Program-made: the position numbers and the translations under genes
In this document: in pieces, positions 57,955 to 64,000 of the stretch
Layout: each line of letters starts with the position of its first letter
Numbering within the stretch: position 1 is the stretch's first letter
Notes under the pieces: generated by a model
Database searches by the model: none
What the model was told of the DNA's origin: nothing
The model's input: the letters and a program-made list of their open reading frames with translations, nothing else
NCBI RefSeq assembly: GCF_002865985.1
Contig: NZ_LNDD01000003.1
Coordinates: 124,001-188,000, forward strand
From: Thermotoga sp. SG1
GTDB taxonomy: Bacteria; Thermotogota; Thermotogae; Thermotogales; Thermotogaceae
DNA: 64,000 nt
Direction of reading: 5' to 3'

Positions 57955-57989
57955 AAACAAAAGAAAAGCGGGAGGAACACCCTCCCGCT
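57955..57989 (-). terminator. Terminator of the carbohydrate-binding-protein gene
   Basis: On the minus strand AGCGGGAGG pairs with CCTCCCGCT around GTGTT (57989-57967) and is followed by TTTCTTTTGTTT. The stem touches the stop codon. It is a strong rho-independent terminator for the gene at 57989-59248. Confidence 0.9.
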
Positions 57990-59248
57990 CACTCACCGTA
58001 CTCTTCCTTGAGGTACTCTTTTATCTTTTGATCAGCCGTCTTTATCGCTGTTTCCATATCGACTTTTCCGTTTATGAAGTCGGAAAACATGTTGCCAACC
58101 ACCGTTCTGATCTCGTACCAGACGCCGATCTGTGGATCGAACACAGCGTTGTCTATCTGAGAAAGGGGTATTTCAAGCAGAGGATCGGACTTTGCTGCCT
58201 CCTTCCAGATGGAGGTCTCAAGAGCACTTCTTCTCACAGGGATGTAACCCGTGTTTATCGCCCAGTAGGCGGTCACCTCAGGGGAGATGAGGTACTTCAT
58301 GAACTCCCAGGCTGCTCTTTTTTCCTCTTCACTTGCCGTGTTGAACATGATGATGTCCGTTCCTGCAAACGGCACCTTGTTCGTCACCCAGGTGGGAACG
58401 GGTGCCCAGCTCCAGGTGAACTTACCCTTCGTGGACTGCTCAACGTAGGGTCTTCCTGCTATCGTGCTTATGTACATCATGATCTTTCCCTGACCAAAAA
58501 TCCCGTCGAGATATCCTCCCTGGAAGTACGCGATCCCATCGTCGACCATTTTCTTTACGAAGGAAAGAACGTCTCTTGTTTCCTGGCTGTCGATGTTGGA
58601 TACCCACTTTCCATCGACCTTTTTCAGGATGGATCCACCGCGCAGTGTGAGAAGAATCTGGAAGAAGTCAACGGTCGTTCTGAATCCATATCCATACTGG
58701 TCGATCTTTCCGTCTCCGTCCAGATCTTCTGTCATGATACGTGCTGCCTCGTAAAGCTCATCGATCGTTTTGGGAACATCGACACCGTACATTGCGAAGG
58801 CATCTGCGTTGTAGTAGAGTATGTAGAGGCTCTTGTTGAACGGAACAGCGTATATGGTGTCTCCCCACATACAGTTATCTCTCAAAGGTTTGAAGATGTC
58901 TTCCCACTCTTCTTTCGTGAGGCCTATCTTTGGATCGTTCACGAACTCGTTCAGAGGCTGCACGACTCCACTCTGTATGAGTTTTGCCGTCCAGTTAGAG
59001 TACGCCTGTGCGATGGTGGGAAGCTCTCCTGCCTGTGCGGCGGCGAGGAGTTTCTGGGAAAGAGCTCCATAGTTTCCAACGTAGACCGCTTCCACCTCGA
59101 TATCGGGATGGAGTTCGTTGAAGGTGTTCACTATCTCCTGAAGGGTCTTTCCGTGCCCACCACCCATGGCGTGCCAGAACGTGACCTTCACCTTCGAAAG
59201 GGCCAGAACACTCAAAGCTACCATCAAAAGAACAAGAACCTTCTTCAC
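57989..59248 (-). CDS. Carbohydrate-type ABC transporter, substrate-binding protein
   Basis: A 419-residue family 1 extracellular solute-binding protein. The signal peptide (MKKVLVLLMVALSVLALS) is followed by KVTFWHAMGGGHGKTL and IVNTFNELHPDIEVEAVY, the typical opening of sugar or glycerol-phosphate binding proteins (MalE/UgpB). The opening 'FWHAMGGGHG' is close to the UgpB type, which hints at glycerophosphodiester-like ligands but does not prove it. The GTG start follows GGGAGG. It is divergent from its two presumed permeases, and no ATPase gene is nearby, so a shared ATPase must serve it. Confidence 0.9.
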   Translation of the reverse strand: MKKVLVLLMVALSVLALSKVKVTFWHAMGGGHGKTLQEIVNTFNELHPDIEVEAVYVGNYGALSQKLLAAAQAGELPTIAQAYSNWTAKLIQSGVVQPLNEFVNDPKIGLTKEEWEDIFKPLRDNCMWGDTIYAVPFNKSLYILYYNADAFAMYGVDVPKTIDELYEAARIMTEDLDGDGKIDQYGYGFRTTVDFFQILLTLRGGSILKKVDGKWVSNIDSQETRDVLSFVKKMVDDGIAYFQGGYLDGIFGQGKIMMYISTIAGRPYVEQSTKGKFTWSWAPVPTWVTNKVPFAGTDIIMFNTASEEEKRAAWEFMKYLISPEVTAYWAINTGYIPVRRSALETSIWKEAAKSDPLLEIPLSQIDNAVFDPQIGVWYEIRTVVGNMFSDFINGKVDMETAIKTADQKIKEYLKEEYGE

Positions 59249-59344: not shown

Positions 59345-60607
59345 ATGAAGGCATCGAAAAAACTCAAAGAGACGGTTCTTGCGTATCTTTTTCTGCTTCC
59401 CTCGCTTGCGGTCCTTGGTATGTTCGTCTTCTGGCCAGTTGGTTTTTCCTTCGTTCTGAGTTTCTTCAAGTGGGACTTCAGAAACATGAAGAATCCCTAC
59501 TTCACAGGGCTCGACAACTACATCGAGATCTTTCGATTCGACTATCCTCCAAAGTACTCTTTCATTTTCACCGTTCTGAACAGCTTCTTTCATCTTGCTG
59601 TTGCCGGTGCTGTTGTGCTCCTTGTGGTTCATCTGCTGAGGAAGAGATCACTCTCCGGTGTTCTTCCTAACGCCATGATTGTGCTACTATACATTGCTTT
59701 GAATCTCTTCAGCCTGAAAAATCCCATCCTTTCCTTTTTTGCAGCGGCCATCTCCTGGTCGTGGCTCGTGTACGATTTCAAGAAAGTGGAGATGAAAAAC
59801 ACCTGGCTTTGGTTCATTCTGTTTCTTGTGGTCTTCACTTTTGTGGAACTTCGTTCATCTCTTCCCGGGATGGTGAACTTCCTACTAGACGCAAAGGACA
59901 AAAATCTCTTTCTCAAAGCCCTCACGAACACCCTCTACTACGTGATACTCAGTGTTCCCTCTCAGATCTTTCTGTCTCTTGTGATAGCCCTTCTTCTGAA
60001 CAGCAACGTCAGGTTCAGGGTCTTCTTCAGAACGGCCTACTTCATTCCTTTCGTCACCTCCGTTGTTGCCATATCTCTCGTCTGGAAGTGGATATTCAAC
60101 GACGAGTTCGGTCTTCTGAACTACATCCTTTCACTGTTCAACATAGATCCCATCTCCTGGCTGAAGGATGAAAGGTGGACGATTCCCACGATCGCTATAG
60201 TGTCTGTTTGGAAAACCGTTGGGTACGATGCGGTGATATTTCTTGCAGGTCTTCAAAACATTGACAGGTCCTACTACGAAGCGGCAGAGGTCGACGGTGC
60301 AAATTCCCTTCAGAAGTTCTTCTACATCACCTGGCCCCTTCTGTCTCCGACGACGTTCTTTCTGCTCATCGTCTCCCTAATAGGTGCCTTCAAGGTCTTT
60401 GCAGAGATTTACATACTCTACGATGGACTTCCAGGGCCGTACAACAACAGTGGAATGACCCTCGTGTACTACGTGTTCGATCTGTTCTACAGACAACAGA
60501 GGATGGGAATCGCTTCAGCGGCGGCGTACATCCTTTTTGCCATCATCCTCATCTTCACCTTCATACAGTACAGGGTTGGAAGAAGAGCGGTCGAGTACGT
60601 ATCGTGA
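59345..60607 (+). CDS. Carbohydrate-type ABC permease, MalF-like, with membrane insertion
   Basis: A 420-residue inner-membrane permease. The N-terminal segment (LAYLFLLPSLAVLGMFVFWP) and the stretch from residue 186 (NLFLKALTNTLYYVILSVP) onward match ordinary 290-300-residue sugar permeases, including the coupling loop YYEAAEVDGANSLQKFF. Between them, at about residues 66-185, lies an extra region with about four hydrophobic segments (near 74-97, 107-122, 128-143 and 154-168). The insertion differs from the single periplasmic P2 loop of MalF. GTGAGGG precedes the ATG. Confidence 0.9.
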   Translation: MKASKKLKETVLAYLFLLPSLAVLGMFVFWPVGFSFVLSFFKWDFRNMKNPYFTGLDNYIEIFRFDYPPKYSFIFTVLNSFFHLAVAGAVVLLVVHLLRKRSLSGVLPNAMIVLLYIALNLFSLKNPILSFFAAAISWSWLVYDFKKVEMKNTWLWFILFLVVFTFVELRSSLPGMVNFLLDAKDKNLFLKALTNTLYYVILSVPSQIFLSLVIALLLNSNVRFRVFFRTAYFIPFVTSVVAISLVWKWIFNDEFGLLNYILSLFNIDPISWLKDERWTIPTIAIVSVWKTVGYDAVIFLAGLQNIDRSYYEAAEVDGANSLQKFFYITWPLLSPTTFFLLIVSLIGAFKVFAEIYILYDGLPGPYNNSGMTLVYYVFDLFYRQQRMGIASAAAYILFAIILIFTFIQYRVGRRAVEYVS

Positions 60608-60616
60608 GGTGGTAGT

Positions 60617-62722
60617 GTGAAGAAACTGATCGTTTATCTTCTTCTCATATTTGGAGCCGTGGTGATGCTTGGACCATTTGTCTGGATGGTGCTCACTTCC
60701 TTTAAGGCACCCTCTGAGGTCCAGCAGTGGCCTCCGAAGTTCTACACCAAGAACTTCTCATTCTCCCGCAATGTGAAGGTGATTATGAAACCGGGTGTTC
60801 AGAGGGTGCCCAGGGGAGTCAGTCTGAGGGAAGCCTACTCGTTGAGAATGGGGGAGGAAAACCTCCTTGCCATCGTCGTGAACGACGATCCGTTCTACAG
60901 AGGAACGGTGACGATCCCTCTGAAGGGAGCAAGATACACAACGAAGGTGAACGACGAGAAGGTTAGAGAGATTGCCTCGAAATCTCCTGTTGAGTTCTCA
61001 TGGAACACACCGGAGGAGTTCTTCGAGCAGTTCTTCATTCACTACAAAAGTGGTGCAAGTCCTTACTTTCAGAGGGCAACTTTGATAAACGAGATTTCGG
61101 CTGCGATAGAGAGTTCGCTGAGAACGATCTCTCAACTTGAAAGGTTCACAGAACTGAGAATAAAAGACGACGCAGAAAGAGAAAGGTTCCATCTATTTCT
61201 TGAAACCAAAAAGAAAGAACTCTCCACACTCCGAGAGAACGTAGAGAAGATGAAAGCAGGAAGCACACTCGTTCTCTCCGACGACGAAATAAGAGATCTC
61301 CATGCATTACTGAAAGGTGTAAGCCTCGAGTATTCTGGAAGCAACCCCCTCGTTTCCGTGTACGAAAAGAGGGTAGCCTTTCCCATTGAAGAGATAAAAG
61401 AGAACATCTCCTACTACCTTGAAGTCAGTGAGTTCTTCCAGAACGCACAGAACCTCACGGTCGAAAAAAACATCGTTGCAAGGGCGATGAGTGAAAAAGA
61501 AAGAAAAGAGCTCTTTTTGAAGAAGATAGAAAACTTCTCCGACAAGGAACTCGTCGAAAAACTCCTTGAAGAATCGAAAAATCCAGTGGAAGAGTACGTG
61601 GCTTTGAAGGAACAGGAAATCTCAAAAAAATACAACGTGGATCTTCTCACTATCGCTTCAGTGAAACCCGTTGTTTCTTCTCTCATCACGCTCGCCCAAG
61701 AAAGCGGCATTGAAGCGGAGAGTTTCTCTCAGATGCTTGAAGAAATGAACACCAGACTCTCCGAAAGCAGCACCTACAAGATCTTGAAATCAAAGCTCTC
61801 TCAGCTCAACCTGAGCGAAGATTTGCTCAACGCGGTTGCACAATATCTCAAAGATGTTGCCCTTCTCAGAAAAGCCTACGAGGATGCGATGAGTTCCTGG
61901 AAGATCGTGGAAGCTCCAGATTTCGTGAAAGAAGTTCGGGTGAAAAACGGCGAAGTCGTAGAGATTCTTCTTGATAGTGTTCCCGCAATATTTTTGAGCG
62001 ACGAGTCCGTGAACTCTGTGAAACTCAGGTTTTCCTTCCGTGAAGTTTTGGCGAACATCTTTCAGAACTACGTGGATGCCTGGAACGCTGCTCCTTTTCC
62101 GAGGTACTACTTCAACACCTTCTTCGTTGCCTCTTCAACGACCATCCTTGAAGTGATCACCGCTTCCCTTGCCGCATATGCCTTTTCCTGGATGGTCTTT
62201 CCAGGAAGGGATTTCATCTTCGGACTCTTTCTTGCCACGATGATGATCCCAGGGGAAGTCCTTCTTGTTCCCAACTTCATCACTATATCAAAACTTGGTT
62301 GGATCGACACCTACTACGCTCTGATCGTTCCTTGGATCGTCAGTGTTTTCGCCATATTTCTCTTAAGACAGCACTTTCTGACCATTCCAAAGGAACTTTT
62401 CGATGCTGCGAAGATAGATGGCTGTTCTCACTGGAGGTTTCTCTGGCAGATAGTTGTGCCGCTGAGCAGACCCGCCGTGATCACATCGGCGCTTTTGAAG
62501 TTCGTTGGAAGCTGGAACGCTTTTTTGTGGGTTCTGATCGTGACAAACAGCGAAAACTACAGAACACTTCCCGTGGGGCTTCAGGCGTTCAGTTCCGATG
62601 TGGGAACACAGTACAACCTCCTCATGGCGGCAGCAACGTTCTCCATTCTTCCTGTGGTGATCCTGTTCATCTTCACACAGAAGTACTTCATACAGGGAAT
62701 CGCAAGAACCGGATTGAAATGA
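60617..62722 (+). CDS. Carbohydrate-type ABC permease, MalG-like, with 430-residue insertion
   Basis: A 701-residue permease, more than twice the usual length. The first membrane segment (LIVYLLLIFGAVVMLGPFVWMV, residues about 4-25) and the PPKFYTKNFSF start of the family are normal. Residues about 50-470 are an insert with no family I recognise; much of it is charged helix, probably coiled coil, lying outside the membrane. From FREVLANIFQNYVDAW (474) the ordinary MalG-like permease resumes, with the coupling loop LFDAAKIDGCSHWRFLWQI and four more membrane segments. The GTG start follows GAGGTGG; the gene is nine bases after the MalF-like gene. Confidence 0.9.
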   Translation: MKKLIVYLLLIFGAVVMLGPFVWMVLTSFKAPSEVQQWPPKFYTKNFSFSRNVKVIMKPGVQRVPRGVSLREAYSLRMGEENLLAIVVNDDPFYRGTVTIPLKGARYTTKVNDEKVREIASKSPVEFSWNTPEEFFEQFFIHYKSGASPYFQRATLINEISAAIESSLRTISQLERFTELRIKDDAERERFHLFLETKKKELSTLRENVEKMKAGSTLVLSDDEIRDLHALLKGVSLEYSGSNPLVSVYEKRVAFPIEEIKENISYYLEVSEFFQNAQNLTVEKNIVARAMSEKERKELFLKKIENFSDKELVEKLLEESKNPVEEYVALKEQEISKKYNVDLLTIASVKPVVSSLITLAQESGIEAESFSQMLEEMNTRLSESSTYKILKSKLSQLNLSEDLLNAVAQYLKDVALLRKAYEDAMSSWKIVEAPDFVKEVRVKNGEVVEILLDSVPAIFLSDESVNSVKLRFSFREVLANIFQNYVDAWNAAPFPRYYFNTFFVASSTTILEVITASLAAYAFSWMVFPGRDFIFGLFLATMMIPGEVLLVPNFITISKLGWIDTYYALIVPWIVSVFAIFLLRQHFLTIPKELFDAAKIDGCSHWRFLWQIVVPLSRPAVITSALLKFVGSWNAFLWVLIVTNSENYRTLPVGLQAFSSDVGTQYNLLMAAATFSILPVVILFIFTQKYFIQGIARTGLK

Positions 62723-62735
62723 AGGAGGAGATAGA

Positions 62736-64000
62736 ATGAAGAAACTCACGGTTTTCCTTCTTGTTCTCTCTTGTGTCGTCTTCGGAGGGGTGTATTACGG
62801 AAACCTGCATTCTCACACGTCTTTCTCTGACGGCTCTGGAACGCCTGACCAGGCTTACGAGTATGCCAGAAAATACCTGGACGTTCTTGCGGTGACGGAC
62901 CATGCCTACTATTTTGCTCAAAAGATAGACGGAAAGACCAAACCGTACCTGACGAAACTCGCTGCAGAAAGATACACAGAAGATGGAAAGTTCGTTGCCC
63001 TTCAGGGATTCGAGTGGACATCGGGAATTGGCCACATAAACGTGTACGAGTCCCTCGAGTGGATCGACAGAAACCATGAAAGTTCCCTTGAAGGTTTCTA
63101 CAGGTGGCTCGTTGAACACAAAAAACTTGCCCAGTTCAACCATCCCATAAGCACCTTCGGTACTTTCGACTCGTTCAGGTACTTTCCGGAAGCAGACAAA
63201 TACGTGAACCTGATCGAGGTGGGAAACGGGAACTGGTCTTCGGGGGATGTGATAAATCCCGAGATGTACGGAAACTACATCCTCGCCCTCAACAGGGGAT
63301 GGCATCTTGGAGCCACCGTTGGACAGGACAACCACAAACCGAACTGGGGAAGCGCGAACGAGGCAAGAACAGGAATAGTAGCAGATGAGTTGACGTACGA
63401 TTCCATCATGGATGCCCTCTGGAAGAGACACACCTTCGGAAGTGAAGACAGAAACGTTCGAGCCCTTCTAAAAAGTGGCCAGCACCTCATGGGAGACGTT
63501 GTTTTCGTGGACGACTTTTCACCAAAGACCCTGACCATCGAGTATCAGGACACAGAAAAACTCCTATATCTTGCCGTCATCTCTCAGAGCGGAACCGTCC
63601 TAGAGCTCAGACCAAGCACAGAAAGACTGAACCTGACACTTTCAGTCACACCTTCTGACGGTTACGAATGGTACTTCGTCTACATGAAACAGATGGACGG
63701 TGACGAGATCGTCACCTCACCGATCTGGTTTCAGATACCATCTTCTGTTTACGTGAACAGCGTGAGAGTGTCTCCAGAGGAGATCCACGATGGTGAGACC
63801 GCAAAGATCTACTTCGAGATCTACAACGTAACAGATGAGGAAAAGAGGGTGACGCTTTCAATCCTTCTGGACGGTGAAGCGCTCAGGGAGGTTTCACAGA
63901 ATTTCTCCCCGTATCAGGTTAAAAGGTTCGTCGTTCCCACAGAAGCGCTGAAGAAAGGATACCACTGGGTTTCCTTCCTCGTTGATGGAAAGATCGTTCA
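62736..64000 (+). CDS. Secreted PHP/CehA-McbA-like metallohydrolase (runs off right edge)
   Basis: Not closed by a stop codon in the window; 421 codons are visible. The ATG follows AAGGAGGAG closely. A signal peptide (MKKLTVFLLVLSCVVFGG) leads to a PHP-type metal domain with NLHSHTSFSDG, AVTDHAYY, FEWTSGIGHINVY, AQFNHP and GQDNH. After about residue 250 come beta-rich repeats, the last resembling a CARDB or Ig-like fold. The CehA/McbA group hydrolyses esters or phosphoesters. Thirteen bases after the permease gene, it is surely in the same operon, so it probably frees or trims the transported compound outside the membrane. Substrate unknown. Confidence 0.85.
   Translation, partial: MKKLTVFLLVLSCVVFGGVYYGNLHSHTSFSDGSGTPDQAYEYARKYLDVLAVTDHAYYFAQKIDGKTKPYLTKLAAERYTEDGKFVALQGFEWTSGIGHINVYESLEWIDRNHESSLEGFYRWLVEHKKLAQFNHPISTFGTFDSFRYFPEADKYVNLIEVGNGNWSSGDVINPEMYGNYILALNRGWHLGATVGQDNHKPNWGSANEARTGIVADELTYDSIMDALWKRHTFGSEDRNVRALLKSGQHLMGDVVFVDDFSPKTLTIEYQDTEKLLYLAVISQSGTVLELRPSTERLNLTLSVTPSDGYEWYFVYMKQMDGDEIVTSPIWFQIPSSVYVNSVRVSPEEIHDGETAKIYFEIYNVTDEEKRVTLSILLDGEALREVSQNFSPYQVKRFVVPTEALKKGYHWVSFLVDGKIV

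Follow-up and report, generated by a model that had tools for sequence, protein, structure and literature searches.

The locus and its two enlarged permeases

A 64,000-nucleotide stretch of DNA from Thermotoga sp. SG1 (positions 124,001 to 188,000 of contig NZ_LNDD01000003.1, assembly GCF_002865985.1), referred to here as the window, contains two adjacent genes whose products, P0001 and P0002, are by their sequences the permease pair of a type I ATP-binding cassette (ABC) importer of the CUT1/UgpAE kind. Each of the two subunits carries a large insert, and the two inserts are unlike one another. Both inserts co-occur with a UgpB-like binding protein, represented in the window by P0003, in almost all of the phylum Thermotogota, whereas the nearest relatives outside the phylum lack the inserts. 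The two open reading frames (ORFs) lie on one strand with a gap of 9 bp, and their coordinates were borne out by our analysis. The features of the pair are as follows (aa, amino acids; TM, transmembrane).

59345..60607, + strand: P0001, MalF/UgpA-type permease subunit, 420 aa, with core TM1, four extra TM helices and the BPD_transp_1 core
59534..59896, + strand: P0001 insert, residues ~64-184, ~121 aa, made of four membrane helices and located where E. coli MalF has its P2 loop
60617..62722, + strand: P0002, MalG/UgpE-type permease subunit, 701 aa, GTG start
60743..62059, + strand: P0002 insert, residues ~43-481, net ~433 aa, placed in the periplasm by the topology and located where E. coli MalG has its P1 loop
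60752..60952, + strand: P0002 insert, N-terminal part of the β base, residues 46-112, with a DDPxYRG motif
60953..61894, + strand: P0002 insert, helical part, residues 113-426, with helices 153-181, 185-211, 246-277 and 401-426
61895..62038, + strand: P0002 insert, C-terminal part of the β base, residues 427-474

The assignment as importer permeases, already made in a preliminary description of this DNA, stands. The Pfam domain BPD_transp_1 was found far over its cut-off in both P0001 (residues 208-414, E 2.7e-18) and P0002 (residues 515-695, E 3.2e-22), and both proteins carry the EAA-type ATPase-coupling motif (YEAAEVDGAN at residues 311-320 of P0001 and FDAAKIDGCS at residues 595-604 of P0002). 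These motifs and the core residues are invariant in 37 P0001-type and 34 P0002-type Thermotogota sequences, and P0001 and P0002 therefore look like working permeases. The best NCBIfam matches are UgpA for P0001 (109.5 bits vs a cut-off of 335) and UgpE for P0002 (147.5 bits vs a cut-off of 297), neither of which reaches the equivalog threshold.

Alignments with E. coli UgpA, UgpE, MalF and MalG and with the mal1 proteins of the same genome place both inserts in the loop after core helix 1, at sites that correspond to MalF-P2 in P0001 and MalG-P1 in P0002. The proposal that the two occupy the same structural place is thus upheld. In P0001, alignment with Bacillota relatives, E. coli UgpA and E. 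coli MalF gives about 121 extra residues, in agreement with the approximately 120 residues and four hydrophobic segments first noticed. The structures of both proteins were modelled as single chains with AlphaFold2 from alignments of 37 (P0001) and 34 (P0002) sequences, and the model of P0001 predicts its insert as four helices (residues 73-98, 106-121, 127-147 and 153-170) with block pLDDT (predicted local distance difference test) values of 82-92, above those of much of the P0001 core. As four is an even number of helices, the topology of the core is kept. Insert length ranges from 118 to 142 aa across the phylum. The alignment with E. coli MalF and the Thermotoga-type MalF1 confirms that this insert shares with MalF P2 the loop after core TM1, but its four hydrophobic helices do not form a hydrophilic periplasmic domain such as that of MalF P2.

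The insert of P0002 is of another kind. Alignment with insert-free relatives places its net 433 or so extra residues between TM1 and the NYVDAWNAAPF core, and except for a loop at residues 60-78 it was modelled at block pLDDT values of about 79-93. Seven β strands (50-59, 83-88, 97-100, 427-432, 437-443, 447-452 and 467-471) lie near both ends of the predicted insert and flank the helical residues 113-426; from their order in the model, we read them as one base domain. The estimate of about 430 extra, largely helical residues therefore held, whereas the picture of a merely charged coiled coil did not, given the seven strands. For the long insert, no Pfam family scored above its cut-off, and the PDB gave no match by sequence or by fold search. 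For both proteins, sequence and model alike, PDB matches were confined to the permease cores (SugAB, MalFG and AlgM).

Both inserts diverge quickly, with a mean pairwise distance of about 0.8 vs about 0.3 for the cores. The whole P0002-type insert measures 429-525 aa across the phylum, its helical part being fast-evolving and variable in length. In an insert-only alignment, the only invariant or nearly invariant insert residues are R95, G96 and P434, all in or beside the β part; R95 and G96, an RG motif in the β base, are invariant in all 34 P0002-type sequences. Within the genus of the window, the P0002 insert is 69-81% identical vs 94-97% for P0003, and hence P0003 appears to be under much stronger constraint.

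Distribution of the inserts

The importer is close to universal in Thermotogota. The long insert was found in 99 of 103 genomes of the phylum, almost always in one copy, and the P0001 insert, searched for with a query that included conserved flanks, in 95 of the 103, again almost always single. Some of the weaker matches of the long insert in distant families rest mainly on the conserved C-terminal flank; as the full ORFs are 700-846 aa long in nearly all cases, the insert is present there too. Across a panel of 38 genomes, P0002-type ORFs measure 638-805 aa and P0001-type ORFs 415-459 aa. The two permease genes adjoin throughout the panel, with exceptions confined to three genera of the window's family: in g2, g3 and g5 they are found on separate contigs (L095/L096, L097/L098 and L127/L128; G and L numbers are our handles for genomes and loci) and both retain their inserts. 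Four genomes (G090, G002, G033 and G034) lack the long insert even when searched with a sensitive profile, and lack a full-length P0001-type protein as well, having ordinary MalF-type cores only. Since G033 and G034 belong to one genus, these amount to about three independent absences.

A second, paralogous permease pair (about 427 and 566 aa) occurs at five Mesoaciditogaceae loci (L255-L259). The four additional helices are present in the P0001-type member (profile E 8.6e-7), and the P0002-type member has a shorter insert, which contains a YRGT motif and is matched by the profile's N-terminal part (E 5.6e-16). Because this shorter insert is without the distal helices, these look like an addition to an older core of the long insert, made up of the β part and the proximal helices. 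The search for joint occurrence that the preliminary description had proposed thus found the two inserts together in the phylum and in this paralog, and both absent from the same four genomes. The pair is more than a chance combination; it recurs across the phylum, on a scale broader than had been described.

Outside Thermotogota, the nearest relatives are mostly Bacillota and match in the cores only. This result comes from a scan of 84,980 species with two peptide patterns, from which the best 80 loci were kept, so that distant insert-bearing relatives could escape it. The outside relatives are typically 292-299 aa (P0001-type) and 274-289 aa (P0002-type) long, and both inserts are absent. 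Profile searches found neither insert in the nine nearest outside genomes, and nothing convincing in 398 Bacillota, where the P0002 insert gave one marginal match (E 4.4e-4, profile residues 329-440). In a tree of P0001 cores, the outsiders form one branch with support of 100/99, and a single gain or a single loss of the P0001 insert is therefore sufficient; the root of this tree is unreliable because E. coli UgpA is very long-branched in it.

Apparent frame breaks were seen in a few genomes. The P0002-type gene is split in G091 (G091:C1:632055-633388) and has an internal TAG in G081 (G081:C1:1605706-1607103), and the P0003-type gene is split in G068 (G068:C1:2162945-2164191). They are either sequencing errors or real lesions.

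The UgpB-like protein and the gene neighborhood

The two genes that flank the permease pair in the window are the following.

57989..59248, - strand: P0003, UgpB-like solute-binding protein, probable partner of the pair, 419 aa, divergent
62736..63998, + strand: P0004, metallohydrolase of the CehA/McbA family, with a signal peptide; truncated at the end of the window, full length 545 aa in L033 (L033:1737-3371)

P0003 belongs to the Pfam family SBP_bac_1 (E 2.3e-47), and its best NCBIfam match is UgpB, at 110.8 bits vs a cut-off of 411, below the equivalog threshold. It has an N-terminal signal peptide but no lipoprotein cysteine. P0003 is probably the partner of the permease pair, although their genes are seldom together. 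In the window's genus (g1), the P0003 gene adjoins the pair in divergent orientation; in 20 genomes of other genera it lies away from the pair, often after apt-pgi-coaE. A P0003-type protein is present in 95 of the 103 Thermotogota genomes at E<=1e-70, mostly as a single copy. The insert-free relatives in Bacillota have one operon in the order UgpC-like ATPase, permease, permease, UgpB-like protein, which argues that the permease pair and the UgpB-like protein belong together. The partnership is also suggested by the Mesoaciditogaceae paralog, as the pair with both inserts stands directly downstream of two tandem UgpB-like genes in L256-L258 (e.g., L258:3495-6475, Athalassotoga saccharophila), and by G090, G002, G033 and G034, in which the P0001-type protein, the P0002 insert and the P0003 ortholog are all missing. 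Two genomes that are 71% complete, G003 and G056, have distant P0003 relatives only. No dedicated ATPase was found in the window's genome; its two UgpC-like ATPases that resemble the Bacillota one each adjoin other permease genes.

What the importer carries was approached through the pocket of UgpB. Compared with the positions that we take, from UniProt, to be the glycerol-3-phosphate contacts of E. coli UgpB, whose residue identities were checked in the E. coli sequence, P0003 is identical at five of seven (Y65, S144, G307, Y346 and R397), with S270 replaced by T and E89 by S; W192 and W195 of UgpB are F and T in P0003. However, the best PDB match of P0003 is a Thermus 'sugar-binding' protein that aligns with the same pocket residues, and consequently the pocket is not diagnostic of the ligand and a substrate call from it is not decisive. 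Genes in and beside the Bacillota operons may give a hint of an organophosphate substrate. Four of these insert-free operons (L263, L266, L269 and L277) end with an RNase J-like metallo-β-lactamase-fold protein, and one such operon has a 2',3'-cyclic-nucleotide phosphodiesterase/5'-nucleotidase-like gene upstream.

In most genera, the neighbors of the permease pair are housekeeping genes (miaA, hflX, metK, rpsT, hslU, fliI or pyrG). Besides these, a methyltransferase-like protein of about 256 aa (SAM_MT, PF04445; L124:6775-7551 and orthologs) adjoins the P0002-type gene at 22 of the loci examined, and stays beside it even where the permease genes are separated, usually followed by miaA. P0004 matches NCBIfam CehA_McbA at 121.3 bits over a cut-off of 80. 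Its relatives, with ORFs of up to about 900 aa, occur in 67 of the 103 genomes, stand beside the pair only in the window's genus and are missing from entire genera in which the pair is present; the metallohydrolase is therefore probably not a fixed component and was rejected as one.

Possible roles of the inserts and comparison with known systems

We favor, at roughly an even chance, the interpretation that P0001 and P0002 constitute a phylum-specific variant of a UgpAE-type importer in which the inserts form a scaffold on which a soluble binding protein docks. That P0003 in particular is what they dock is a more tentative proposal, made by analogy. According to the title of Daus et al. (2007), as it stands in the reference list of PMC3150292, MalE interacts with MalF-P2 and MalG-P1 in E. 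coli/Salmonella. Docking is suggested because the inserts occupy the positions of these two MalE-binding loops. Furthermore, the binding proteins of the relatives in Bacilli are mostly lipoproteins, but those of Thermotogota are soluble and would benefit from help with docking. Each permease would have gained its insert after core helix 1 no later than the base of the phylum, and the inserts would most likely be enlarged counterparts of MalF-P2 and MalG-P1 in function. Substrate would be caught by the soluble P0003, which the periplasmic domain of P0002 would capture and position over the permease, while the extra helices of P0001 would buttress the pair and anchor the periplasmic domain. Such an importer would have to borrow an ATPase encoded elsewhere.

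Several observations weigh against this docking role. The complete genome G071 has both permeases but no recognizable P0003. The inserts diverge fast and conserve few residues, which is not what a tight binding surface would show. Many permeases of the same genome are of ordinary length, and soluble binding proteins therefore do not require inserts. Two thirds of the model confidence come from the 34-sequence alignment. Lastly, the two inserts do not coevolve specifically. Their evolution seemed correlated (partial r 0.30, permutation p 0.0005), but when the unrelated insert of the Thermotogales protein MalG1 (discussed below) was used as a control, it gave partial r values of 0.64 and 0.39 vs 0.56 for the pair itself, and insert-insert coevolution was rejected as evidence. 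The suggestion that the two inserts may meet outside the membrane therefore gains nothing from it. The lengths of the two inserts also correlate (r 0.56, 34 genomes), a value uncorrected for kinship and not used as evidence.

The same divergence, with lengths that vary from genome to genome and few invariant positions, would be expected if the inserts were mainly structural, contributing to the stability or assembly of the heterodimer and having drifted without a role in binding or transport. This is unlikely, although it is the strongest of the competing explanations; wherever the pair occurs it has kept both inserts, also at the separated loci and in mesophile-rich lineages, and the β base keeps its invariant RG motif. 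We are a little more doubtful that the long insert is an envelope tether, which would join the importer to the toga, the peptidoglycan or an outer-membrane protein and keep the transporter positioned below a channel. The insert lies in the periplasm, is mostly helical and is restricted to this phylum, whose outer sheath is unusual, and in most genera the pair stands among housekeeping genes, as a structural device might. However, its longest predicted helix, at 32 residues or about 48 Å, is by itself too short to cross a periplasm of the usual width, no envelope gene adjoins the pair consistently, and Pfam, PDB sequence and fold searches gave no match to a cell-wall-binding or outer-membrane domain. 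The coiled-coil extension imagined at first, which might span the periplasm or contact the toga, is not supported, given the same helix length and the lack of an envelope partner.

The pair might also have given up nutrient import for another task, for example as a sensor or as part of the envelope, and be powered through its ABC core. In most genera no binding-protein or ATPase gene adjoins it, and its neighbors are housekeeping genes. This seems improbable to us, as the EAA-type motifs and core residues are fully conserved, and a UgpB-like protein that is phylum-wide, and missing in the same genomes as the pair, has its gene beside the pair in the window's genus. An idea that goes further, and that we advance with much reserve, is that of a phylum-defining housekeeping importer with dispersed genes, whose composite of membrane-helix and periplasmic inserts, neither of them known elsewhere, links the transporter to the binding protein or the outer sheath and which serves a universal need (e.g., recovery of envelope components) and not opportunistic sugar feeding.

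Earlier work has noted large additions to the permeases of ABC importers but has seldom explained them. In the present case, unlike additions in the membrane and the periplasm have been kept together through the history of a phylum, at the loops that recognize binding proteins. They provide a testable case of an importer adapted to a cell whose periplasm is wide and sheath-covered, and point to a need for transport, conserved in Thermotogota, that the annotation 'sugar ABC transporter permease' hides.

The closest relatives outside Thermotogota are the UgpC/UgpA/UgpE/UgpB-like operons of Bacillota, such as those of Alkaliphilus sp. (L263) and Sporosarcina luteola (L266), with identities of about 50-60% to the P0001 core, 58-64% to the P0002 core and 33-40% to the binding protein. 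They differ from the Thermotoga pair in having no inserts, an ATPase in the operon, often a lipoprotein as binding protein, and in many cases the RNase J-like protein. The E. coli sn-glycerol-3-phosphate importer UgpBAEC provides the best NCBIfam matches of P0001, P0002 and P0003, all far below the cut-offs, and its UgpA and UgpE are without either insert. In contrast, the E. coli maltose system MalFGK2-MalE has extra polypeptide at the same loops, MalF-P2 and MalG-P1, which contact the binding protein. However, MalF-P2 is a hydrophilic periplasmic domain where P0001 has four membrane helices, a kind of insert that we did not find described for this position, and MalG-P1 is short compared with the approximately 433 aa in P0002.

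Literature searches with the Thermotoga maritima locus tags TM0595, TM0596 and TM0598 returned nothing. The nearest published counterparts are MalG1 and MalG2 of Thermotogales, which were reported in 2008 to have a hydrophilic insert of about 500 aa between TM1 and TM2, of unknown function, and to stand beside MalF proteins with a large P2-type loop (PMC2246101). Paired insertions of this sort had been thought to be without a described role. This is right as regards the function of the MalG insert, but the pairing as such was described in that report. Relatives of the MalG1/MalG2-type insert, some of them weak matches on the flanks, occur in 96 of the 103 Thermotogota genomes, more widely than in the published sample, with ORFs of up to about 940 aa in some families; the two loci L031 and L032 are G000:C2:95500-103500 and G000:C4:251000-259500. 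Homology between the P0002 insert and that of MalG1/MalG2 was rejected as undetectable by profile-profile comparison and profile search. The comparison gave a coiled-coil-like match in several registers (54.9% probability, 11% identity), and the only match of the P0002-insert profile (A4) in the window's genome is P0002 itself, though both giant MalG proteins are encoded there.

MalG1 and MalG2 resemble P0002 in belonging to the same phylum, in the loop that is enlarged, in the mostly helical and hydrophilic nature of the insert, and in having a MalF-type partner with an insert too, while neither a β base nor a membrane-helix insert has been described for MalG1/MalG2-MalF1/MalF2 (PMC2246101). 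The window's genome encodes three permease pairs whose MalG-type subunit is oversized, and in each of them the MalF-type subunit has an insert as well. Because the three pairs achieve this by different sequences, enlargement of this loop seems to have been favored more than once in Thermotogota.

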